A stretch of DNA of 50,481 bases, from positions 1 to 50,481 of the forward strand of contig CAMNOL010000004.1 in assembly GCA_946546815.1 (NCBI GenBank), given 5' to 3'. Shown one piece after another: positions 1,434 to 49,042 of this stretch. This DNA comes from an uncultured Oscillospiraceae bacterium (GTDB lineage: Bacteria; Bacillota; Clostridia; Oscillospirales; Oscillospiraceae). Under the pieces are notes generated by a model. It saw only the letters and a list, made by a program, of their open reading frames with translations, was not told the DNA's origin and did no database searches. Each line of letters begins with the position of its first letter. The first letter of the stretch is position 1. The translations under genes were made by a program, and so were the position numbers.

Positions 1434-1690
1434 GTTCAAAAGCAAAGACGGGAAGAAGTAGCACGGTTCCGGGAAGAAGAGAGCGGTCGTTTTGGTGAAA
1501 GACCGACGAAGGGGCTGGGTGAACGGCATCCCAGAGCTGCGGCAGGAACGGACACAGTCCCAGTAAACGCCGCCGGAACCCGCCGTTACCGGGATTTGAG
1601 CGTCCGGAGCCATGCTTCGGAAATTCAGGTGGCACCACGGACACAAGTTCGCCCTGAGTCGATGTGACTCGGAGGCGATTTTTTATTTGT
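1434..1690 (+). ncRNA. T-box riboswitch, glycine (specifier GGC), upstream of glyQS
   Basis: This leader senses uncharged tRNA-Gly and permits read-through into glyQS. Visible parts are the Stem I apical region (AGAGAG at about 1475, then GGTGAAAGACC at 1493-1503), the specifier region GAAC-GGC-ATCCCA-GAGC (1521-1537) with GGC at 1525-1527, the T-box AGGTGGCACCACGG (1627-1640) and a terminator hairpin (1650-1686) ending in T6. GGC is a glycine codon, matching the downstream gene. The base in the tRNA-acceptor bulge (UGGN) is C, whereas the proline and valine T-boxes in this window have U. Parts were recognised by eye, not with a covariance model. Confidence 0.9.
1650..1686 (+). terminator. 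Intrinsic terminator of the glycine T-box
   Basis: The stem pairs CGCC..GAGTC with GACTC..GGCG and is followed by six T. It is the terminator alternative to the antiterminator formed with the T-box at 1627-1640. Confidence 0.85.
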
Positions 1691-3382: not shown

Positions 3383-4696
3383 ATGAAACTGACAGTGAAA
3401 CGACTGCTGGCGCTGATCCTGGCGCTGACAATGGCTATGAGCCTGTGCGCCGGCGCATGGGCGGCAGAGGTGGATCCGGCAGATGCGCCCGCCCACGTGA
3501 CCACTCTGAACGGAAAGAGCGGCAAATGCGGTGAAAATGTCACCTGGGTTTTGGACGGAGACACCCTGACCATCAGCGGCACCGGAGCAATGGCTGATTT
3601 CGATGGGGGCGAGGATATCTCCTGGAGCGAGGAGCGCGACCAGATCACAAAGGTGGTCATTGAGAAGGGCGTCACCACAATCGGAGAGATGGCGTTCTTC
3701 TACTGCAGCAATCTGAAAAGTGTCACCATTCCCAACACCGTTACCAAAATCGGATATCAGGCATTCCATGCCTGCCGGCAGCTGAGCGATGTCACCATTC
3801 CCAGTGGGGTCAAGATGATCGGCGACTATGCTTTTGATGAAACGGCACTGTCCTCGGTGAGCCTGCCTGCCAGCGTGACCAGCGTTGGGTATCTGGCGTT
3901 TGCCAACGGTCCCAAGCTGAAAAAGGTGAACCTGGGCAAAGGGGTAAAGAGCGTGGACAAGAGCGCCTTTTCCGGCTCAGACGTCCTGGAGGCCATCACC
4001 GTTGCCTCCGGCAACAAGACCTATAGCGCTCAGGGCGGCGCGCTCTACGATGCGGCAAAGAAAAAGCTGATCCTGTGCCCCGAGGGGAAGAAAGGGACGC
4101 TGACCCTGCCCAAGAGCACCGTCACTATCGAAAAGTACGCCTGCATGGGCTGCGAGAAGCTCACCAAGGTGGTCATTCCCAGCGGCGTCAAAACCATCGG
4201 TGAATCCGCCTTTGAGTATTGCTCAGCGCTGAAGAGCCTGACCATTCCCGCCAGCGTGACCAAAATCGGGGACTACGCTTACGGCGTACAGAGCACCGCC
4301 TACGGCGATGAGGATGATTATTATTATCCCATCAAGGGGGACGTCATTTACGGCTACAAGAACTCTGCCGCAGAGAAATACGCCAAGAACAACAAGGTCA
4401 CGTTCAAGGCCCTCCTTCCCAAGACAACACTGTCCAGCGTGAAGAACGTCAAGGGCAAAAAGATGACCGTCAAGTGGAAGAAGAACACCAAGGGCAAGGG
4501 TTATCAGATTCAGTACTCCACCGACAAGAACTTCAAGAAGGGGAACAAGACCGTCAAAATCGGCAAGAATTCCACCACAAGCAAAACCATTTCCAAGCTG
4601 AAAAAGGGCAAAACCTATTATGTCCGCATCCGCACCGTCAACGGAAGCAACACCTCCGACTGGAGCGGTGTGAAGAGCGTAAAGATCAAAAAGTAA
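3383..4696 (+). CDS. Secreted leucine-rich-repeat (BspA-type LRR_5) protein with C-terminal fibronectin III domain
   Basis: The 437-residue protein starts with a signal peptide (K-R charged start, hydrophobic LLALILALTMAMSL, likely cleavage after GAWA, residue 27). Residues about 80-290 hold BspA/TpLRR-type repeats of the form L..VTIP..VT.IG..AF..C (for example LKSVTIPNTVTKIGYQAF and LKSLTIPASVTKIGDYAY), with a repeat-poor interval at about 190-235. Residues about 345-437 form a lysine-rich fibronectin III-like domain (KKMTVKWKK, GYQIQYSTD, YYVRIRTV). No sortase motif or cell-wall-binding domain is present, so the protein is probably released or held by its basic domain. Such proteins usually bind host or cell-surface ligands; the ligand is unknown. 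The start has AGGAGG 8 nt upstream. The gene is monocistronic. Confidence 0.88.
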   Translation: MKLTVKRLLALILALTMAMSLCAGAWAAEVDPADAPAHVTTLNGKSGKCGENVTWVLDGDTLTISGTGAMADFDGGEDISWSEERDQITKVVIEKGVTTIGEMAFFYCSNLKSVTIPNTVTKIGYQAFHACRQLSDVTIPSGVKMIGDYAFDETALSSVSLPASVTSVGYLAFANGPKLKKVNLGKGVKSVDKSAFSGSDVLEAITVASGNKTYSAQGGALYDAAKKKLILCPEGKKGTLTLPKSTVTIEKYACMGCEKLTKVVIPSGVKTIGESAFEYCSALKSLTIPASVTKIGDYAYGVQSTAYGDEDDYYYPIKGDVIYGYKNSAAEKYAKNNKVTFKALLPKTTLSSVKNVKGKKMTVKWKKNTKGKGYQIQYSTDKNFKKGNKTVKIGKNSTTSKTISKLKKGKTYYVRIRTVNGSNTSDWSGVKSVKIKK

Positions 4697-19344: not shown

Positions 19345-19797
19345 TTGAACAAGCTGGTTTTGGAAATTGAATTTGACAATGCCGTCCGGGATCTGCTGGA
19401 GCAGCCGGAGGTGCAGCGGCTTCGGCAGTACACTCACCACAAGCGCACCACCCGGTACCACCACACCATGCGGGTGGCCAGATGGTCCTTCCGCGCGGCC
19501 CGGCGTCTGGGATTGGATGCCAGATCCGCAGCCCGGGGCGCAGTGCTCCACGATCTGTTCTTCCACGACAAGAGCTGCCGCCCGGAGAACTACCAGGGGC
19601 CCGCTGTGCTGAAGCACCCGGAGGAGGCCGCCGAAAACGCAAAACTGCTGACAGAGCTTTCCCCCAAAGAGGAAAACATCATCCTGTCCCATATGTGGCC
19701 GGCGTCCCGACACGCGCCCCACAGCCCGGAGGCGGTGCTGGTGAATCTGGTGGATGACCTGGTCGCCGTAGGAGACCTGCGGGGAAAACGGACATAA
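19345..19797 (+). CDS. HD-domain protein (putative phosphohydrolase)
   Basis: The 150-residue protein has the HD metal-binding pattern: RYHHTMRVARWSF (first His), then GAVLHDLFFHD (the HD pair) and a later LVDDLVAVGD (final Asp). HD proteins of this type hydrolyse phosphate esters, often of nucleotides; the substrate is unknown. The start is TTG at 19345: an in-frame TGA lies just upstream (19339-19341), and a nearby ATG is in another frame. The stop codon TAA (19795-19797) overlaps the first bases of the repeat element at 19795-19952. Confidence 0.82.
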   Translation: MNKLVLEIEFDNAVRDLLEQPEVQRLRQYTHHKRTTRYHHTMRVARWSFRAARRLGLDARSAARGAVLHDLFFHDKSCRPENYQGPAVLKHPEEAAENAKLLTELSPKEENIILSHMWPASRHAPHSPEAVLVNLVDDLVAVGDLRGKRT

Positions 19798-19952
19798 GGA
19801 AGCACCGGACGCAGCTTCGGTGTATTCGGGAAAATTTACACCATTGTTTCCTTCCAAATTATTGAAATCTGACAGGGTTTATGGGGGTTTACGCCCTATT
19901 CCGACAAAATTTACAGCGCAATGCACGCTTGCCCCACTCTGCAGTGGCTGTA
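19795..19952 (+). repeat. MITE-like intergenic element, copy C (most diverged)
   Basis: The stretch starts TA-AGGAAGCACCG and ends GCAGTGGCTG-TA. It matches copy B (44530-44695) in the same orientation at three places: the left end (AAGGAAGCACCG against AAGGCATCACCG), the core at 19861-19884 (18 of 24 positions like 44600-44623), and the right part, ACAAAAT..GCGCAATG..CGCTTGCCCCA. The terminal repeats have decayed. It overlaps the stop codon of the HD gene. It fills most of the 221-bp gap before bioY. Confidence 0.6.
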
Positions 19953-28125: not shown

Positions 28126-28386
28126 AAAAAAACGCCCCGTCCCGTCATAGGACGAAGCGAACACTCCGTGGTACCACCTATATTCATGAAACTGCACACC
28201 TTTGCACTTCCATGCACTCTTCCCCGATAACGAAGGGCAGCTCGTCTCCCCTTACTGGGCCGTTGCCGTTCAAAGGAGCCGCTCACAGGGGACGCTCAGA
28301 CAGGACCGCGTAGGCGCTTTCAGCAGCTGCGCCCTCTCTGGACCGCGGTGCGGGTCTGACTTTCCTGATCATTGCGTTTCGCGTTA
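28126..28386 (-). ncRNA. T-box riboswitch upstream of ilvB, specifier GUC (valine)
   Basis: On the minus strand the leader shows the Stem I apical motif (CAGAGAGGGCGC then GCTGAAAGCGCC), the specifier region GAGC-GTC-CCCTGT-GAGC (28297-28281) with GTC at 28293-28291, the T-box AGGTGGTACCACGG (28179-28166) and a terminator (stem 28159-28133, then T7 at 28132-28126). The specifier position follows from alignment with the glycine and proline T-boxes in this window. GUC codes valine, the product of the pathway. The UGGU bulge would pair with a tRNA whose discriminator is A, as in typical tRNA-Val. Confidence 0.88.
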
Positions 28387-32151: not shown

Positions 32152-32180
32152 ATTATACCTGACCGGCGTGAAAAAAGCAA
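32152..32180 (-). promoter_or_regulatory. Sigma-A promoter of the comF operon
   Basis: On the minus strand TTGCTT and consensus TATAAT (32157-32152) have a 17-nt spacer. Confidence 0.75.
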
Positions 32181-32284
32181 ATATAAATGACAGGATCACC
32201 CGGAATGGGGCGGCTATTTCCCGACAGATTCTGCTGATTGGCCCGATTATACTGAATTCAATACAATTCGGAAGGAATTTCGGT

Positions 32285-34597
32285 ATGGGTACAAAGGAAA
32301 CAAAAATAACAGGGGAAAAACCGAAAAAAACCGCCCCGCATCCCGCCCTTGGAATGGTGAAAAAGCACCGCAGACTGCTGCGGGGGCTGCTGTTCCGGTT
32401 TGGGCTGTCTGCCCTGCTGAGCAGAGGAGTGCTGCTGAGCGGTCATGCGCCCTTCGGACTGGGGTTCATCGCAGCCTCCGGCTCCGGGCTGGACGGAGTG
32501 GCGGCGCTGGCAGGTGGGCTGCTGGGCTACGGACTTGGCATGGACACCGGCAGTGCGCTGCGGTATGCAGCGGCGGCCATTCTCATTTACACGGTGGAAT
32601 TTTCCTGCTTTGACCTGCGCCTGTACAGACAGAAATGGTTCATGGCAGTGTGCAGCAGCGTGATCACGGCGGTCACCGGGTTTGTCTACCTCTCCGGCGC
32701 CGGATGGAACAGTGGCGCGGTGATCAGCTTTGGGTCAGAGGTCCTTTTGGTGGGGGTGTCCTGCCTGTTATTCAGGGAGCTGAAGATAGAAGAAGGGCAG
32801 ACGCCGGATCGTGCCGCGCTGCTGTTCTTTCTCTCGGCGGCGCTGGCTGGCATAGCGGGGATTCACCCGGGACTGGGCGGCGCAGCGGCGGCGCTGGCGG
32901 TTCTCATTGCGGCCCGGAGCGGAGCGGGCGCCGGGGCAGCAGTGGGCGGTATGGCGGGACTGGCTGTTGGGCTGACGGCGGGAGGAACCCCTTTGCTGGG
33001 GGTCGTGCTGGCGGCGGCGGGAGCGGCCACCGGAAGGCTGGCGGGACGGCATCGACTGGAATCGGTGCTGATGTTCGCGTGTAGCGGACTTCTTTGCACG
33101 CTTTGGGTCCACGGCGGAGCGCAGACGGCGGGGGAAATCGCAGCGGCGGCCATTGTCTGCTCTGCGATTCCGGAAACGCTGCTGCGCCGGGCGGACAGTT
33201 TGACCGGGCCGGGGGGACAGACTGCCCCGGCGGCGGGACCGGTGGAGCGCTCCTCTGCTGTGGAGCGGACCCGCTTCCGGCTGGAGGAGCAGGCGGCGGC
33301 GTTTCGCACCCTCTACGAGCGCATCAGTGAAAGCGTCCTCCGGGGGGAGCCCCAGGAGGACACTGCGGTGATTTTTGACCGGACCATGGACCGGGTGTGC
33401 ACGGGCTGCTTTTTCTATCCCGTGTGCTGGCAGCGGGATTATGCGGGGACCTGCAAATCCCTGACTCAGGTGCTGGAGGTGATGCTGGACAGCGGAAACG
33501 CGACGATGAAGGACTATCCGGAGCCGTTTCGCCGCAGATGCAACCGATTAGAGGAGTTTTTGAGGGTTTCCAACGAGGAACTGTACGGCTACTGGAACCG
33601 GCAGCGCTGCCGGTCCCGGCTGCAGAACAACCGTCTGGCGGTGTGCCGGCAGTACATACAGATGGCGGATTTGCTCAGCGATGCCGCCGCCGTCCTGGGA
33701 GAGGAGGTGGAAGAGGAACCGGCCGGTGCGGCGGCGGCGGCCCGGGCGGCTGCAACGCTGGGGATTGAAGCCCGGTGCAGCCTTCAGGTGGATGAGCGGG
33801 GGCGCCGGACGCTGGAGCTGCGGGGCAAGGGACTCTCCGCCCTGAACGGAGAGCAGGGAATTAAGCTGATATCCGGAGCACTGGGGGTGCGGATGGAGCC
33901 CACTGATGCCTTCCGGGTGCGAAAGGGCCAGCAGCTGGTTTTCCACCAGTGTCCGCCCCTCAGCGCCACAGTGGCGGTGTCCTCCAGGCGAAAACAGGAG
34001 GGACAGGCCAACGGAGACAACGGCCTATGGTTCCGGGACAACGAGGGAATCCTGTGGGTGGCGCTGTGCGACGGAATGGGAAGCGGCACCGATGCGGCTC
34101 GGGACAGCAGGCTGCTCACCACCTTATTAAAGGATTTTCTCCACGCGGGAGTGCCGCCCGCCGCTGCGCTGGCTACGCTGACCGGTGCGCTGAGCCTCCG
34201 GGGGGAGGTGAGCGGCGGCTTTACCACGGTAGACCTGCTGCGGCTGGACCTGTTCTCTGGCAGCACAGAACTGTTTAAATTGGGTGGCGCCCCCACTTAT
34301 CTGCGCAGGGGAGGCCTGGTGAGCCGAATCACCGGCTCTGCCCTCCCTGCGGGACTGGAAACGGATCGGGAGAGCCAGCCGGAGGTCACCCGGTTCCGAC
34401 TTTCTGCGGAGGATTTTGTGCTGATGGTCACCGACGGCATCACCGACGGAACCGGGGATGAGTGGCTGAAAGCCATGCTGTCCCATTACCAGGGAGAAAG
34501 TCCCAGAGAACTGGCTCAGGCGGTGCTGTCCAGCCCCGGCGCCGGCCGGGAGGATGACCGTACTGTGGTGGCGGTGCGCCTGTCCAAGCGCGTATAA
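32285..34597 (+). CDS. spoIIE: Stage II sporulation protein E (membrane PP2C phosphatase)
   Basis: SpoIIE dephosphorylates SpoIIAA to release sigma-F in the forespore and takes part in polar division. The 770-residue protein has an N-terminal region with about ten hydrophobic helices (about 30-310), a central region (about 320-560) with several Cys residues, and a C-terminal PP2C/SpoIIE phosphatase domain (about 565-770). Metal-binding motifs are ALCDGMGSGTDAARDS (about 590-605), GGFTTVDLL, GGAPTYLRR and VLMVTDGITDG. ATG 32285 is preceded by AAGGA at 8 nt; the open frame extends upstream to 32168 into the promoter region. The TATACT at 32248-32253 lacks a good -35, as would fit an activated promoter. 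The gene marks the organism as a spore former or close relative. Confidence 0.94.
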   Translation: MGTKETKITGEKPKKTAPHPALGMVKKHRRLLRGLLFRFGLSALLSRGVLLSGHAPFGLGFIAASGSGLDGVAALAGGLLGYGLGMDTGSALRYAAAAILIYTVEFSCFDLRLYRQKWFMAVCSSVITAVTGFVYLSGAGWNSGAVISFGSEVLLVGVSCLLFRELKIEEGQTPDRAALLFFLSAALAGIAGIHPGLGGAAAALAVLIAARSGAGAGAAVGGMAGLAVGLTAGGTPLLGVVLAAAGAATGRLAGRHRLESVLMFACSGLLCTLWVHGGAQTAGEIAAAAIVCSAIPETLLRRADSLTGPGGQTAPAAGPVERSSAVERTRFRLEEQAAAFRTLYERISESVLRGEPQEDTAVIFDRTMDRVCTGCFFYPVCWQRDYAGTCKSLTQVLEVMLDSGNATMKDYPEPFRRRCNRLEEFLRVSNEELYGYWNRQRCRSRLQNNRLAVCRQYIQMADLLSDAAAVLGEEVEEEPAGAAAAARAAATLGIEARCSLQVDERGRRTLELRGKGLSALNGEQGIKLISGALGVRMEPTDAFRVRKGQQLVFHQCPPLSATVAVSSRRKQEGQANGDNGLWFRDNEGILWVALCDGMGSGTDAARDSRLLTTLLKDFLHAGVPPAAALATLTGALSLRGEVSGGFTTVDLLRLDLFSGSTELFKLGGAPTYLRRGGLVSRITGSALPAGLETDRESQPEVTRFRLSAEDFVLMVTDGITDGTGDEWLKAMLSHYQGESPRELAQAVLSSPGAGREDDRTVVAVRLSKRV

Positions 34598-34650: not shown

Positions 34651-34814
34651 AGGAAGGACTGATTCAATCTCTCGGATGGCTGGGCGAGGATATTTTTCGT
34701 CCAGATAGTGGCCAAATTCTGCAGGAATCCTGACGGATTTCAAGGAATTGGGACTCTATATGGCGGAAAATAGACCGTCCAGACGCCGTAGCTTGATTGA
34801 ATCAGTGTTTCCTT
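34651..34814 (-). repeat. MITE-like intergenic element, copy A
   Basis: The element ends in inverted repeats: AGGAAGGACTGATTCAATC (34651-34669) on the left and GATTGAATCAGTGTTTCCTT (34795-34814) on the right, with ACTGATTCAATC exact in both. Its core matches copy B in the opposite orientation: 34721-34744 agrees with the complement of 44600-44623 at 23 of 24 positions, and GCGAGGATATTT (34684-34695) is also shared. It fills most of the gap between spoIIE and the next gene. No ORF or promoter is apparent inside. Confidence 0.75.
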
Positions 34815-34845: not shown

Positions 34846-35127
34846 ATGGTGGTAAAGGGTATTTCACGCAGGGTGATCGTGGTCCGCTCGCCGGATCCCC
34901 GCTTTTTTGAGCAGGCTATTTTTTTGCTGAAAGAGGACGCGCTTCACGCCGACGGGGTGACGGCGGAGCAGGTGGTGAAGGAGGCCCGTCAGGCGGCGGC
35001 AGGCTATGTGGAGCGCACCACCGGAAAGACCAGAAAATACAGGGGTTATACCATGCCCGGGTGGGTGTGGTTTGTGCTGGGGGCCTGCGCCGTAGGAATC
35101 CTATGGTGGATTGCCTCTGCGGTGTGA
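34846..35127 (+). CDS. Small protein with C-terminal transmembrane helix, function unknown
   Basis: The 93-residue protein has a soluble N-terminal part (ISRRVIVVRSPDPRFFEQAIFLL, then DGVTAEQVVKEARQAAAGYVE) and one transmembrane helix near the C-terminus (about 70-90, VWFVLGACAVGILWWIA), so it is tail-anchored. I cannot name a family. AGAGG lies 7 nt upstream of the ATG. It lies between spoIIE and yifB, with its own upstream region occupied by a repeat element. Confidence 0.75.
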   Translation: MVVKGISRRVIVVRSPDPRFFEQAIFLLKEDALHADGVTAEQVVKEARQAAAGYVERTTGKTRKYRGYTMPGWVWFVLGACAVGILWWIASAV

Positions 35128-37763: not shown

Positions 37764-39275
37764 ATGATATTTCGCAGAACAGATAAATATGGCTACAGCC
37801 GCTATTACGGAGGCGGGGGACCGGCATTTGTAATCAAGGTTGTGGTTTCCCTCCTTTTGGTGGCGGCGCTTGTGATCGGCGGGGCTGCATTCGCCATGCA
37901 GCGATACATGGTCTACACAGAAAACGGCGGTCATCTGGAGTTTCCTTGGGACAAGCCCGCCGCAGAGGAGGGCAATGCCGGAGAGGGCGACCCGCTGGAT
38001 GCACTGGTTGTCACCGGAGAGGAAAGCGCGGAGCAGTCCGCAGAGAGCGACGGTTCCGCATCGGCTGAACAGTCCGCAGAGAGCGACGGTTCTGCATCGG
38101 CGGAGCAGTCGGCAGAAAGTGACGGTTCTGCATCGGCGGAGCAGTCGGCAGAGAGTGACGGTTCCGCATCCACTGAACAGTCGGCGGAGGCAGATGCTTC
38201 TGCCAGCGCGGGTGCTTCTGAACCTGCGGTTCCCGGAGAGACAAAACCCGGCGTCTGGGCCAGAATTGCTGCGTGGTTTAAGAACCTGTTCCGGGCGCCT
38301 GAGCCTGTGATTCAGCCCCAGAGCAGTGAGGCGGATGTCAGCGGCACCGAAGCAGAGGAATCCGGCTCCGCGTCGGCTGATCCGGCAGACGGTGAGAAAT
38401 CTCAGGGGGATGCGTCTGAATCGGCACCGGCTGAACAGTCTGAGGAAAAGAAGTCGGAACCGGCGGCGCTGCCCGGCGGCGCGCTGATCCAGCACGTTTC
38501 CATCGGAGATGTGACCGCAGACTACGCGGAAGGCGACATCAAAAACGCAAATGGCACCGGCATCATGCTCTATATGAAGGAGTCCGGCGGCAGATTGAAC
38601 TACGTTTCCGGCCAGGAGATTGCCGATGAGCTGGACGCCTCCACAGAGGAGAGCACCAGCGAGAAAGTGGCCAAGACCATCCGGGAACTGAAGGAGGACG
38701 GCTACTACACGCTGGCCTATGTGGATTGTTTCCAGGATCAGCGGGGCGGCGAAAAGTCTGAATACAGCCTTTACGACGAAGGCGGCTCCCCCTGGTACGA
38801 CGGTGAGGAACGCGCCTGGGTGGATCCCACCAATGAGGCGTTCCAGGACTACCTGATCGGTATCATCAAAGAGCTGGCGGATATGGGCTTTGACGAAATC
38901 GCGCTGAATAACGCCTGCTATCCTGCCACCGGCGACACCAGTATTCTGTCAGACGAATGCTACAATCCGGAGGAGTTTGAGAAAACGGTGACTGACTTCT
39001 ACAAGAAGGTTGCCAAGGCGATGAAGAAATCTGATGTGATGATTTCCGTGCTCACCTCTGAGACGGCCATCACGGAGGGATCGGATCCTGTCACCGGACA
39101 GACACTGAAGAACATGAAAAAGCTGGGCGGCCGCCTGTGGGTGGACGCTGACCGGGATGACGCGGAGAAGCTGGAAAAGGCCCTGAAGGAAGCGGGCTAT
39201 CCGGACAACACCCTGGGCCTGCTGGTGGGCAAGCTGGACAGCGACAGCCAGCGCAGCCAGATGAACCTGGACTGA
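37764..39275 (+). CDS. Membrane-anchored glycoside-hydrolase-like (DUF4015-type) protein with Ser/Glu repeats
   Basis: The 503-residue protein has one N-terminal transmembrane helix (about 20-45) and a long extracytoplasmic linker (about 65-240) rich in Ser, Ala, Glu and Asp that includes tandem 12-residue repeats. A C-terminal TIM-barrel-like domain follows (about 245-500). The domain resembles the putative glycoside hydrolases of the DUF4015 type: TLAYVDCFQD, GGSPWYDGEERAWVDPTNE and GFDEIALNNACYP (about 375-387). In that family the last motif usually reads GFDEIxFDYxRFP, so the Asp expected at the active site is replaced. The protein may be a diverged or inactive glycosidase acting near the cell wall. 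The family call is moderate; the substrate is unknown. Confidence 0.7.
   Translation: MIFRRTDKYGYSRYYGGGGPAFVIKVVVSLLLVAALVIGGAAFAMQRYMVYTENGGHLEFPWDKPAAEEGNAGEGDPLDALVVTGEESAEQSAESDGSASAEQSAESDGSASAEQSAESDGSASAEQSAESDGSASTEQSAEADASASAGASEPAVPGETKPGVWARIAAWFKNLFRAPEPVIQPQSSEADVSGTEAEESGSASADPADGEKSQGDASESAPAEQSEEKKSEPAALPGGALIQHVSIGDVTADYAEGDIKNANGTGIMLYMKESGGRLNYVSGQEIADELDASTEESTSEKVAKTIRELKEDGYYTLAYVDCFQDQRGGEKSEYSLYDEGGSPWYDGEERAWVDPTNEAFQDYLIGIIKELADMGFDEIALNNACYPATGDTSILSDECYNPEEFEKTVTDFYKKVAKAMKKSDVMISVLTSETAITEGSDPVTGQTLKNMKKLGGRLWVDADRDDAEKLEKALKEAGYPDNTLGLLVGKLDSDSQRSQMNLD
38028..38207 (+). repeat. In-frame tandem 36-bp repeats (five units)
   Basis: Four near-identical 36-bp units encode AEQSAESDGSAS (38028-38171), followed by a diverged fifth unit encoding TEQSAEADASAS (38172-38207). 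They form a flexible acidic linker in the glycosidase-like protein. Copy number is likely to vary between strains by slippage or recombination. Confidence 0.9.
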
Positions 39276-43226: not shown

Positions 43227-44228
43227 ATGTCAAAACGAATCAAAGACACGGATTATCTGTTCCTCTCCAGCCGCATCCACGTTCTGGAAACGACCCTGCT
43301 GAACAAAGAACGCAGGGAGCGGATGCTGGAAGCTGCCTCTGACTCCGACGCAGTCCGGGTATTGGTGGAGTGCGGCTACCCTGAAATGCCCGTCGTGGAC
43401 GTGGACAGTGTGAACAACGCGCTGGCGGTCATGAGGGACAGAGTGTTTGAGGATCTGTACGCCTTTGCGCCGGATCCCAAAATGATCGATGTATTCAAAG
43501 TAAAGTATGACTACCACAACGCCAAGGCACTGCTGAAGGCTGAGGCCATGGGTACCGATCCCCAGCGTCTGCTGATGGACGTGGGACGCTATCCTGTGAA
43601 AGAGCTGACCGAGGCAGTCCGGGAGAAATCCGACGGGGGATTCAGCGAGATCTTTGCGCTGGCGGTGCAGGAGGCGCGGGAGGTGCTGGGCACCACCCGG
43701 GACCCCCAGCAGTCTGACTTCGTGCTGGACAAGGCTTACTTCCGGGAGATGGAGCAGCTGGCGCAGGCCACCGGCTCCGAGTTCCTGGCGGGCTATGTGA
43801 AGGCCCAGGTGGACGTTGCCAACCTGAAGAGCGTGGTCCGGGTGCTGCGGATGAAAAAGAACCCCGAGTACCTGAGCAACGTGCTCTTTGAGGGCGGAAC
43901 CATCGGCGCGGACACGCTGCTGCAGATGGCGGAGCGGGGCGAAAAGCTGGAAGGTATGTACGGCAGCACCCCCTATGCCGCCGCCGCGGAGGAAGGACAG
44001 GCCGCTGTTGCCGGCGGAAAGCTGACCGCCTTTGAGCGCAGCTGCGACAACGCGCTGATGGACTATGTCGCTGAGGCGAAGTATGTCCCCTTTGGCGAGC
44101 AGGTGCTCATCGGCTACCTGGTGGCCAAAGAGAGCGAGCTGACCGCTGTCCGCATCATTATGATGGGCCGGCTGGCGGGGCTGAGCACGGACGTGATCCG
44201 GGAAAGGCTGCGTGACGCTTATGTATAA
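43227..44228 (+). CDS. ntpC: V-type ATPase subunit C (rotor cap)
   Basis: Subunit C joins the D/F shaft to the K ring. The 333-residue helical protein begins MSKRIKDTDYLFLSSRIHVLE and contains YDYHNAKALLKAE. ATG 43227 is used because AAGGAGG lies between it and an earlier in-frame ATG at 43212. It overlaps ntpG by 8 nt. Confidence 0.93.
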   Translation: MSKRIKDTDYLFLSSRIHVLETTLLNKERRERMLEAASDSDAVRVLVECGYPEMPVVDVDSVNNALAVMRDRVFEDLYAFAPDPKMIDVFKVKYDYHNAKALLKAEAMGTDPQRLLMDVGRYPVKELTEAVREKSDGGFSEIFALAVQEAREVLGTTRDPQQSDFVLDKAYFREMEQLAQATGSEFLAGYVKAQVDVANLKSVVRVLRMKKNPEYLSNVLFEGGTIGADTLLQMAERGEKLEGMYGSTPYAAAAEEGQAAVAGGKLTAFERSCDNALMDYVAEAKYVPFGEQVLIGYLVAKESELTAVRIIMMGRLAGLSTDVIRERLRDAYV

Positions 44229-44532
44229 AATTGCAGTTCTGGGCGACCGCGAGAGCGTCATGGGCTTCAAGGCGCTGGGTCTGGACGTCCACTCCGCAGA
44301 GAGCGCGGCAGAGGCCCGCAAGATCCTGCACCATCTTGCCCGGGACGGCGAGACTGCCATCATTTATCTGACGGAGCAGTACGCCGCTGAAATGCCCGAT
44401 GAGATCGCGAAGTACAAGGAGCAGGTGATGCCTGCCATCATCCTGATCCCCGGCAAGGCCGGTTCCCTGGGAATTGGTATGGAGAATATCAAGGATTCCG
44501 TGGAACGCGCCGTCGGAGCGGATATTCTCTAA
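44221..44532 (+). CDS. ntpG: V-type ATPase subunit F (NtpG, central shaft)
   Basis: The 103-residue alpha/beta protein (MYKIAVLGDRESVMGFKALGL at the start, AIILIPGKAG near residue 75) binds subunit D in the central shaft. ATG 44221 overlaps the end of ntpC; an in-frame GTG at 44212 is an alternative. The stop TAA (44530-44532) is built from the TA at the edge of repeat copy B and its first base. Confidence 0.9.
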   Translation: MYKIAVLGDRESVMGFKALGLDVHSAESAAEARKILHHLARDGETAIIYLTEQYAAEMPDEIAKYKEQVMPAIILIPGKAGSLGIGMENIKDSVERAVGADIL

Positions 44533-44695
44533 GGCATCACCGCACAATGAGAACTTCGGCGCCTTGCGGTCTGTTTTGCGCCAGCTTGCCCACAGCTTTC
44601 TTGAAATCCGACAGGATTCCTGCGAAATCTGTGAACAATCTGGGCACAAAATATCCTCGCAATTCGCTCTTGTCCCATTATGCGGTGAAGCCCTA
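44530..44695 (+). repeat. MITE-like element, copy B, inside the V-ATPase operon
   Basis: The element runs TA-AGGCATCACCGCACAATG at the left to CATTATGCGGTGAAGCCC-TA at the right, terminal inverted repeats of 18 bp with three mismatches, flanked by TA on both sides. The TA flanks suggest target duplication by an IS630/mariner-type transposase. The core is shared with copies A and C. It overlaps the ntpG stop codon and accounts for most of the 249-bp ntpG-ntpA gap, whereas the other gaps in this operon are at most 71 bp. Confidence 0.8.
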
Positions 44696-44781
44696 AATTA
44701 AAAACTTCGGATTCGCTGCCCCCGAAAGGGTGCGGCGGCGGAACCGGATGCTTACTCTGTATAGGAAAGAAGGTTGACCAA

Positions 44782-46551
44782 ATGGGCACGATTGTCAAGG
44801 TTTCCGGCCCGCTGGTGGTTGCCACCGGTATGTCAGATGCCAACATGTCCGACGTTGTCCGAGTGGGTAAAGACCGTCTGATTGGTGAGATTCTGAACAT
44901 GAACGGCGATTCCGCCTCCATTCAGGTCTACGAGGAGACGTCCGGCCTTGGCCCCGGCGCTGAGGTTGTCACCACCGGTATGCAGCTGTCCGTAGAGCTG
45001 GGCCCCGGCCTGCTGGAGAACATCTATGATGGGATCCAGCGTCCGCTGGAAGGCATCATGCAGGTCTGCGGCTCCAATATCAAGCGCGGCGTGGAAGTTC
45101 CCGCGCTGAACCGTGAGAAAAAGTGGCACTTTGTCCCCACCGCAAAGGTTGGCGACGAGGTGGTGGGCGGCGACTTCCTGGGCAACGTTCAGGAGACCCC
45201 CTCTGTGCTGCACCACATCATGGTTCCTGTGGGCATGAAGGGCACCGTCAAGTCCATCAAGGGCGGTGACTTCACCGTGGAGGAGACCATCGTTACGCTG
45301 GAGACCGACAAGGGTGAAGTGAAAGAGCTGAACATGATTCAGCGCTGGCCCGTCCGTGTGGGCCGCCCCTACACCAAGAAATTCCCCCCCAAGACCCCCC
45401 TGCAGTCCGGTCAGCGTGTCATTGACACCCTGTTCCCCGTGGCAAAGGGCGGCACCGCCGCTGTCCCCGGACCCTTCGGCTCCGGCAAGACCGTGGTTCA
45501 GCACGCGCTGGCAAAGTGGTCTGACGTGGATATCGTGGTCTACATCGGCTGCGGCGAGCGCGGCAACGAGATGACCGACGTTCTGCGGGAGTTCCCCGAG
45601 CTGATCGACCCCCGTACCGGTGAGACGCTGATGAAGCGTACCGTGCTGATTGCCAACACCTCCGATATGCCCGTGGCCGCCCGTGAGGCCTCTGTTTACA
45701 CCGGCATCACCATCGCCGAGTACTTCCGGGACATGGGCTACGCAGTTGCCGTTATCGCTGACTCCACCTCCCGCTGGGCAGAGGCCCTGCGTGAGATGTC
45801 CGGCCGTCTGGAAGAGATGCCCGGCGAGGAAGGCTACCCCGCCTACCTGGCATCCCGTCTGGCTCAGTTCTACGAGCGCGCCGGCGTGGTGCAGTGCATC
45901 GGTTCCGACACCGGCCGTACCGGTTCTCTGACCGCTGTGGGCGCAGTTTCCCCTCCCGGCGGCGACCTGTCCGAGCCTGTTTCTCAGGGCACCATGCGTA
46001 TCGTCAAGGTGTTCTGGGCGCTGGACTCCTCCCTGGCTTACCGCCGTCACTTCCCCGCCATCAACTGGCTGAACTCCTACAGCCTGTACACCGACTCCTT
46101 GAAGGAGTGGTACGATCAGGAGCTGGGCACCGACTATGTCAGCAACCGGGAAAAGGCCATGGCCATCCTCCAGGAAGAGGCCAGCCTGAACGAGATCGTG
46201 CAGCTGGTCGGTAAGGATTCCCTGTCCCCCAGAGACCAGCTGACGCTGGAAGTCGCCCGTATGATTCGCGAGGACTTCCTGCAGCAGAACGCCTTTGTGG
46301 ACATCGACTCTTTCTCCAGCTATCGCCGCCAGTATCTGATGCTGAAGATGATTCTGGACTACGATGTGCAGTGCCGCGCCGCCCTGGAAAAGGGTGCAGT
46401 GCTGAACGACCTGTTCCGCATCGAAGCCCGTAACGGCATTGGCCGGGCCAAGACGGTGCCTGAGGACGAGTATGAGGCTGTCTATGCCCAGATCTTCGAG
46501 GACATGGAGAATCAGATCAACGAAGTGGCTGAGAGAGGGGAGGAAGACTGA
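44782..46551 (+). CDS. ntpA: V-type ATPase subunit A (catalytic)
   Basis: The 589-residue catalytic subunit has an N-terminal beta-barrel, the A-specific non-homologous insert (about 115-190) and the nucleotide-binding domain with P-loop GPFGSGKT (about 231-238), GERGNEM and [25 protein letters not shown] lies upstream of the start. Its TGA overlaps the ntpB ATG. Confidence 0.97.
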
Positions 46552-48772: not shown

Positions 48773-49042
48773 GTATACTCACAGGCTATGACGAAAAACA
48801 GTAAGCGAGTCCATTCGCACAGAGAGGAGCCGGACGGTGCAAGGCTTCCGGGTGGCCCGCTGAACCCATTTCTGAGCCGTGCGGTGCAAGCAAAAATGCG
48901 AAACCGTGCCGGGTGCGCCCGTTAAAGCGTGAGGGTATTCAGAATACCCCGGAAGGCTTTGGTCGTGAGACCGGAGTGAAAAAAGGTGGTAACACGGAGC
49001 GTTCGCTTTCGTCCTTGCATGACGAAGGAGGATGCTTTTTTT
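48773..49042 (+). ncRNA. T-box riboswitch upstream of proS, specifier CCA (proline)
   Basis: The leader has the Stem I apical motif (CAGAGAGGAGCCGG then GGTGCAAGG), the specifier region GAAC-CCA-TTTCT-GAGC (48862-48877) with CCA at 48866-48868, the T-box AGGTGGTAACACGG (48984-48997) and a terminator (48999-49042) with T7. CCA is a proline codon. The T-box reads GGTAACAC where the usual form is GGTACCGC-like, a small deviation. Recognised by eye. Confidence 0.9.
48999..49042 (+). terminator. Intrinsic terminator of the proline T-box
   Basis: Inner stem TTCGTC / GACGAA and outer GCGTTC / GGATGC (with wobbles) precede seven T. Confidence 0.8.

Follow-up and report, generated by a model that had tools for sequence, protein, structure and literature searches.

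In the window, by which we mean the whole analysed stretch of 50,481 nucleotides from an uncultured Oscillospiraceae bacterium, an initial annotation made from the letters alone pointed to three diverged copies of one intergenic element and proposed an undescribed MITE family. The question raised by this locus is whether these copies belong to a mobile family and, if so, whether their interior is under selection. The features concerned are the following, where R1 denotes the covariance model built from 42 distinct cores of 46 nt.

34652..34812, plus strand: element A, short form, 161 bp, with ends GGAAGGACTGATT...AATCAGTGTTTCC; the RNA strand is the plus strand.
34710..34755, plus strand: R1 match in A, core hairpin and flanking helix (covariance model, 58.2 bits, E 3.4e-14; a match by construction, A being one of the 42 model sequences).
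34721-34744, plus strand: conserved 24-nt core in A.
44533..44692, minus strand: element B, short form, 160 bp.
44589..44634, minus strand: R1 match in B (covariance model, 60.8 bits, E 6e-15; likewise by construction, B being another model sequence).
44600-44623, minus strand: conserved 24-nt core in B.
44529..44532, no strand: left target-site duplication of B, CTAA.
44693..44696, no strand: right target-site duplication of B, CTAA.
19795..19952, minus strand: copy C, a probable decayed relic with a core relic near 19861-19884; hairpin and further copies were not found.

Element A lies between spoIIE (32168-34597) and a 93-aa ORF (34846-35127), and its 4-bp flanks (CTTA / TTCG) show no recognisable duplication. 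Element B lies between the genes for subunit F (44212-44532) and subunit A (44782-46551) of a V-type ATP synthase, and its RNA strand is antisense to both. The left CTAA of B includes the TAA stop codon of the subunit F gene. The proposed kinship of A and B holds: the cores at 34721-34744 (+) and 44600-44623 (-) are identical at 23 of 24 positions, and the whole-element local score of 52 was reached by none of 300 shuffles (mean 9.0, maximum 15), so that the alignment is better than that of shuffled sequence. Both elements fold as a single long hairpin (z -8.5 for A and -9.1 for B). The third proposed copy stands only in part. A distant kinship of C is likely, since none of 300 shuffles attained its score with A (18, where the shuffles peaked at 13) or with B (23, where they peaked at 15); however, its core agrees at 17 of 24 positions on the minus strand, not at the 18 first given, and it is not a good copy. 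No fold was found on either of its strands (z 0.05 and -0.23), and the covariance model, run with its filters off, did not report it at any E up to 10. Searches for further copies of C gave none in 58 relatives at E 1e-5, and in its own genome nothing beyond two matches of 14 bases (E 3.1). Judged from its sequence, C may be a decayed relic at most.

The genome is a 1.86 Mb draft in 145 contigs, of which the window is contig 4. With A and with B as queries, blastn against this genome gave 54 stretches each at E up to 10, a number that includes fragments and self-inverted matches. Merging by hand reduced these to 60 places, of which 39 are uncut and 21 are truncated by a contig end. Thus the family extends well beyond the three copies first seen, and the assembly breaks on it, as shown by the 21 cut places. 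The expectation of hundreds of copies genome-wide was too high; tens were found, roughly 50. Two subfamilies, with ends like GGAAGGACTGATTAAATC (subfamily A) and like GGCTTCACCGCATAATG (subfamily B), are accompanied by intermediates between them and by internally deleted forms. Identity to A of the window is 93-98% in the seven remaining near-complete A copies, which points to recent movement of this subfamily. Elements are about 160 bp in size (usually 157-161 bp in four classes), with long forms of 216-247. An inner hairpin module of 68-69 bp was found in nine places, eight of them whole or nearly so and one cut by a contig end; it is 97-100% identical across subfamilies A and B and, by eye, occupies the same internal insertion site. 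In some own-genome copies, a 20-bp hairpin adjoins the core.

We then looked at how far the core reaches. In a species-level genome collection, the pattern GCAGKAATCCTGNCGGATTTCAAG matched at least 114 stretches, and the titles among the matches listed include Oscillospiraceae, Flavonifractor, Intestinimonas, Oscillibacter, Dysosmobacter, Clostridiales and similar names; Flavonifractor plautii ATCC 29863 and Flavonifractor sp. An10 are both among the carriers, and F. plautii belongs to the class Clostridia. With the own genome counted at every level, R1 matched in 33 of 150 genomes and 29 of 106 genera of the family of the window (E 1e-3; the own genome has 31 of the family-level matches listed), in 26 of 295 genomes of the order (E 1e-5) and in 16 of 291 genomes of the class (E 1e-6). 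In a phylum sample, two of 299 genomes matched (E 1e-6), the genome of the window itself and a second member of its family. The profile search proposed for the family therefore finds the core in genomes across the class. A phage vehicle was considered and rejected, as phage records had no match and IMG/VR had one contig with the core and none with the core of the 68-bp module. A fixed RNA gene at locus L262 was also rejected; by eye, this core too lies between inverted ends.

Of 65 representatives, six were set aside as spurious core hits and 13 because they are long, rearranged or chimeric; the 46 remaining elements, minus identical cores, are the 42 model sequences. The possibility that the interior codes for protein was rejected: some classes looked open by eye, yet no frame is consistently open across the 46 elements (stop-free elements per frame, 12, 4 and 14 on the core strand and 13, 16 and 0 on the other). 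When 11 end types were searched around 186 core hits, 132 had both ends, 11 had one end and 18 neither, while 25 lay near the edge of a stretch. By eye, one core is common to elements of six or more end types.

Are these ends those of a transposable element? In four classes (A, B, T1 and T2), identical 4-base flanks were found in 42 of 98 elements, against 14.1 expected from shuffling across classes and 22.6 from shuffling within them; none of 2000 shuffles reached 42. Within-class shuffling gave 8 of 16 against 1.8 expected for class A and 15 of 34 against 3.5 for T1 (each reached by 0 of 2000 shuffles), and 5 of 12 against 1.7 for class B (reached by 23 of 2000). Taken together, 28 of 62 elements of A, B and T1 have an exact 4-bp duplication. 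T2 shows no such 4-bp duplication (14 of 36 against 15.6 expected within the class). G stands beside the left end in 34 of 36 T2 elements and C beside the right end in all 36 (T9 rows, mostly T2 again, were left out of this analysis), and T2 appears to duplicate TA, with ends GGG...CCC. A TA duplication occurs in another IS5 subgroup. Common flanks are CTAG, TTAG, CTAA and TTAA, that is, YTAR. As the family is short, non-coding and multi-copy, with inverted ends and target-site duplications, its proposed identity as a MITE family is well founded.

IS with element-type ends occur in the genomes that host foreign copies. The IS of L230 is bounded by T1 ends (GGAACCTCTGAATAAAT, without mismatch on one side and with two mismatches on the other), that of L241 has T9 ends on both sides, and one-end matches were seen for the IS in L247 (T9), L245 (T2), L236 (T4) and L235 (T6); for each of these six, none of 200 shuffled loci matched. 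In L229, from a genome of the genus of the window, B-like ends flank the transposase of a PF01609 IS. Among ten IS protein frames scanned, nine match IS5-family models, seven of them above the curated cut-off. The IS5_4 model was matched by L230 and by L084 of the own genome, and the IS5_3 model above cut-off by L241, L237 and L247 and below it by L245 and L236, so that the partner of T1 (4 bp) is IS5_4 and that of T2 (TA) is IS5_3. The transposases of L235 and L236 contain stops. L084 (about 1300-2200, own genome C36) is an IS5_4-type IS with its transposase in two overlapping frames of 193 and 84 aa; the 84-aa frame had no match in the scan of IS protein models, and the split could be a programmed frameshift or decay. 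The ends of A find a counterpart in this own-genome IS, similar but not equal, and those of B in the B-like ends of the congener's IS. The IS630-family mobiliser considered at first is not supported, because the matching transposases are of the IS5 family and subfamilies A and B duplicate 4 bp. The TA of T2 would fit an IS630/Tc1 MITE, yet the transposase of the T2 partner L245 is of the IS5_3 type. A and B are IS5-type MITEs, and their mobilisation by an IS5-family transposase is putative.

According to passages of PMC10359306, the target of E. coli IS5 is YTAR. The elements resemble IS5 family insertion sequences in their end sequences and in the 4-bp YTAR duplication of A, B and T1; they differ in that they encode no transposase, and the core was found inside none of the 22 IS loci examined. 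Cores adjoining an IS in L242 and L248 sit between the T2 ends of a neighbouring element, not in the IS. An autonomous element combining core and transposase was also sought around the 11 core hits that have one end and lie away from stretch edges. For these, no far partner end within 3.5 kb fits such an element; one far end was seen, at 224 bases in L114.

Several arrangements of these elements were observed in passing. Many T2 copies (e.g. L118, L139 and L140) show by eye a perfect outward-pointing TTGACA at the right end, so T2 insertions could give neighbouring DNA a -35 box. In L123, L168, L217 and L225, T2 elements or ends are paired head-to-tail with one CTAG common between them. Extra hairpins occur at other internal sites in other species (L179 and L200 of Oscillibacter, L096/L220, L109, L112, L114 and L176), and the long form of L176 and the long forms of the window genome have in common a CCCCTTG.GGG hairpin and the motif TTGAACCG.

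Taking as RNA strand the one that reads GCAGGAATCCTG, the RNA predicted for the interior of the elements has at its tip a conserved hairpin of 7 bp with the loop UGNC, above a freely covarying helix; in most classes, a conserved CAAGG / AACGCAG internal loop and then a long mid stem are predicted, and in some elements additional hairpins. In the 42 distinct sequences, both sides change at all seven pairs of the helix around the core (helix 1), and over the whole structure 92.5% of cells are paired, compared with 72.5% after shuffling. In the compensatory-change test that had been called for, the covariation score is 0.497, against 0.132 in shuffled alignments (0 of 500 reach it) and at most 0.212 with slid partners. 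The near-invariance of the core among foreign copies is partly by construction, the core pattern having been the search query; in order and class loci found with the model, the tip hairpin changes pairwise (GGAATAC...GTATTTC and GCAATCC...GGATTGC).

Furthermore, the fold is biased to one strand. Folding favours the core strand over its complement in every one of the 46 diverged representatives (by 20.1 kcal/mol on average), in all seven long forms and in all 14 further loci (one own-genome, two same-family and eleven order or class; 15 rows with one dropped as a wrong hit, the fold windows taking in flanking DNA). Most of the bias consists of wobble pairs: it falls from 19.9 to 4.8 kcal/mol when G·U is forbidden, and single mismatches off the core are G·U in 78 cases and A·C in 11 (51 and 11 distinct position pairs). 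The mid stem shows it most strongly (all 46 favour the core strand), and in helix 1 it is small (36 versus 10). The terminal stem, where it is likewise small (27 versus 18, one tie; mismatches G·U 28 versus A·C 7), is itself partly biased and thus not a clean negative control. Neutral simulated palindromes have a mean bias of 0.2-0.6 with an sd of 10-11, and 1.6-3.3% of them reach -20; since single neutral palindromes are often sizeably biased, the case rests on the common sign in all 46. By threshold, these related elements form 33, 17 or 3 arm clusters, all of which favour the core strand. An origin of the wobble excess in strand-biased mutation was rejected, as unpaired singletons run in the wrong direction (C>T plus A>G 6 versus G>A plus T>C 13). 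Together, the covariation and the one-strand bias argue for selection on an RNA-type structure rather than plain decay, in line with the initial annotation, which from the conserved central block had suggested a selected RNA or protein-binding site.

Alternatively, the fold under selection could belong to single-stranded DNA, such as a strand that a recombinase binds or that replication exposes. Folded single-stranded DNA tolerates G·T better than A·C, and this tolerance would give the same wobble bias; covariation and strand bias fit DNA and RNA alike. However, the inverted ends and short target duplications indicate double-strand DDE transposition, and we regard a selected DNA strand as unlikely.

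Where does this selection act? Among within-class singleton changes (95 copies, five classes), 27 make a new G·U and 19 a new A·C (p 0.30), whereas class consensuses have 16 G·U and 1 A·C. The difference between singletons and consensuses has p 0.007 and that between singletons and representatives p 2.6e-5, from counts that are not independent. Selection thus seems to act on the propagating source lineages, the inserted copies drifting near-neutrally. Master copies of SINEs are an analogous case of selected sources with drifting copies.

This pattern bears on the possibility that the RNA serves the host at each insertion site, as a terminator, an mRNA stabiliser or destabiliser, or an RNase III site. 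According to passages of PMC10969869 and PMC2229807, such roles have been proposed for Neisseria and Yersinia repeats, and the Correia/Nemis and ERIC MITEs act in this way. The gene contexts of 115 elements (rough gene calls with the element masked, the spurious rows L160 and L193(-) still included) are also more often convergent (35) than divergent (18). The tandem contexts, however, have no bias between sense (26) and antisense (36), so host read-through does not explain the one-strand RNA; individual copies are hardly constrained (the 27 versus 19 above), and B is antisense to the genes around it. When unmasked, 11 of the 115 elements are spanned by some ORF of more than 150 aa. We therefore think it improbable that service to the host at each site accounts for the RNA. 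Weakest of the three is the reading as plain IS5 MITEs with a passive interior, hairpin and core being inherited without function, for which inverted ends, duplications and IS partners explain the mobility sufficiently, recent copies drift near-neutrally and one biased ancestor may underlie all 46 elements, but which the single core under completely different ends between classes, the covarying flanking helix and a bias of the same sign in all 46, absent on average from neutral palindromes, already disfavour and make quite improbable.

We consider it probable that A and B are non-autonomous IS5-type MITEs whose interior specifies a one-strand folded RNA that persists while the ends are exchanged. 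IS5-family transposases would act in trans on the inverted ends of A and B and insert them at YTAR sites, and the interior, presumably transcribed, would specify the folded RNA on the GCAGGAATCCTG strand. What appears to be the same RNA design is found on the ends of two IS5 transposase subgroups, one with 4-bp and one with apparently TA duplications, which suggests that the RNA module persists and the ends are swapped. Because selection is visible in the founding lineages and hardly in individual recent copies, we infer that the RNA is needed for the element's own propagation, either in getting mobilised or in being tolerated after insertion. This suggests that the RNA itself matters to the spread of these elements. 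MITEs are usually viewed as passive transposon scraps; here, one folded RNA strand would be kept while the ends turn over, and selection for spreading can be told apart from selection at the site of insertion by the drift of recent copies. Should this be confirmed, a role of RNA in the trans mobilisation of a DNA element would become directly testable.

A far bolder reading, to which we give little credence, is that of a selfish RNA module travelling by DNA transposition, whose folded transcript, tethered to the element by RNA polymerase, would capture an IS5-family transposase, or the ribosome or mRNA that produces it, and so defeat the transposase's preference for its own gene. If this were true, one RNA design could exploit any IS5-type ends, as SINE RNAs exploit LINE machinery.

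The MITE family with a persistent RNA interior, which we favour, has its nearest described counterparts in the BOX, Correia and ERIC repeats, as far as passages of the papers cited here describe them. Pneumococcal BOX is likewise a small interspersed modular repeat with a predicted RNA fold, optional inner modules and ends resembling an IS (ISSpn2), as the ends here resemble IS5 (passages of PMC3049150). By that description, BOX differs in its boxA-boxB-boxC plan and its streptococcal hosts, whereas the present family has a different core hairpin, IS5 ends and one core common to many end types; the word "compensatory" has no occurrence in PMC3049150. Correia/Nemis, ERIC and YPAL are similar in their 100-200 bp and mostly inverted ends and give stable stem-loop transcripts; all of these have other hosts, Correia has TA at its ends and RNase III cleavage at the inverted ends, and the passages of PMC2229807 and PMC10969869 on these repeats do not describe a core common to different IS ends. 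Rfam gave no credible family on the elements of the window, nine own-genome loci, L176 (1-300) and seven distant loci; the best low-threshold match near an element was a CsrB fragment at its edge (16.9 bits, gathering 71, E 0.0072). No description of the family came up in searches of open-licence PMC literature either, which supports its proposed status as undescribed. An IS5-type MITE family defined by a common one-strand RNA core, not by its ends, thus appears to be new, and annotators gain a family of repeats at which assemblies of gut Clostridia break.

Other features of the window include three T-box leaders whose scores exceed the Rfam gathering threshold:

1436-1659, plus strand: T-box leader.
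28145-28381, minus strand: T-box leader.
48779-49019, plus strand: T-box leader.

Two ORFs of the window contain repeats. Tandem repeats of 36 bp at 37992-38207, within ORF 37764-39275 (DUF4015, putative glycosyl hydrolase), encode an Ala/Glu/Ser-rich stretch. Repeats at 69-bp spacing (3644-4269) lie inside the long ORF 3383-4696, which resembles a 23-residue leucine-rich-repeat protein.
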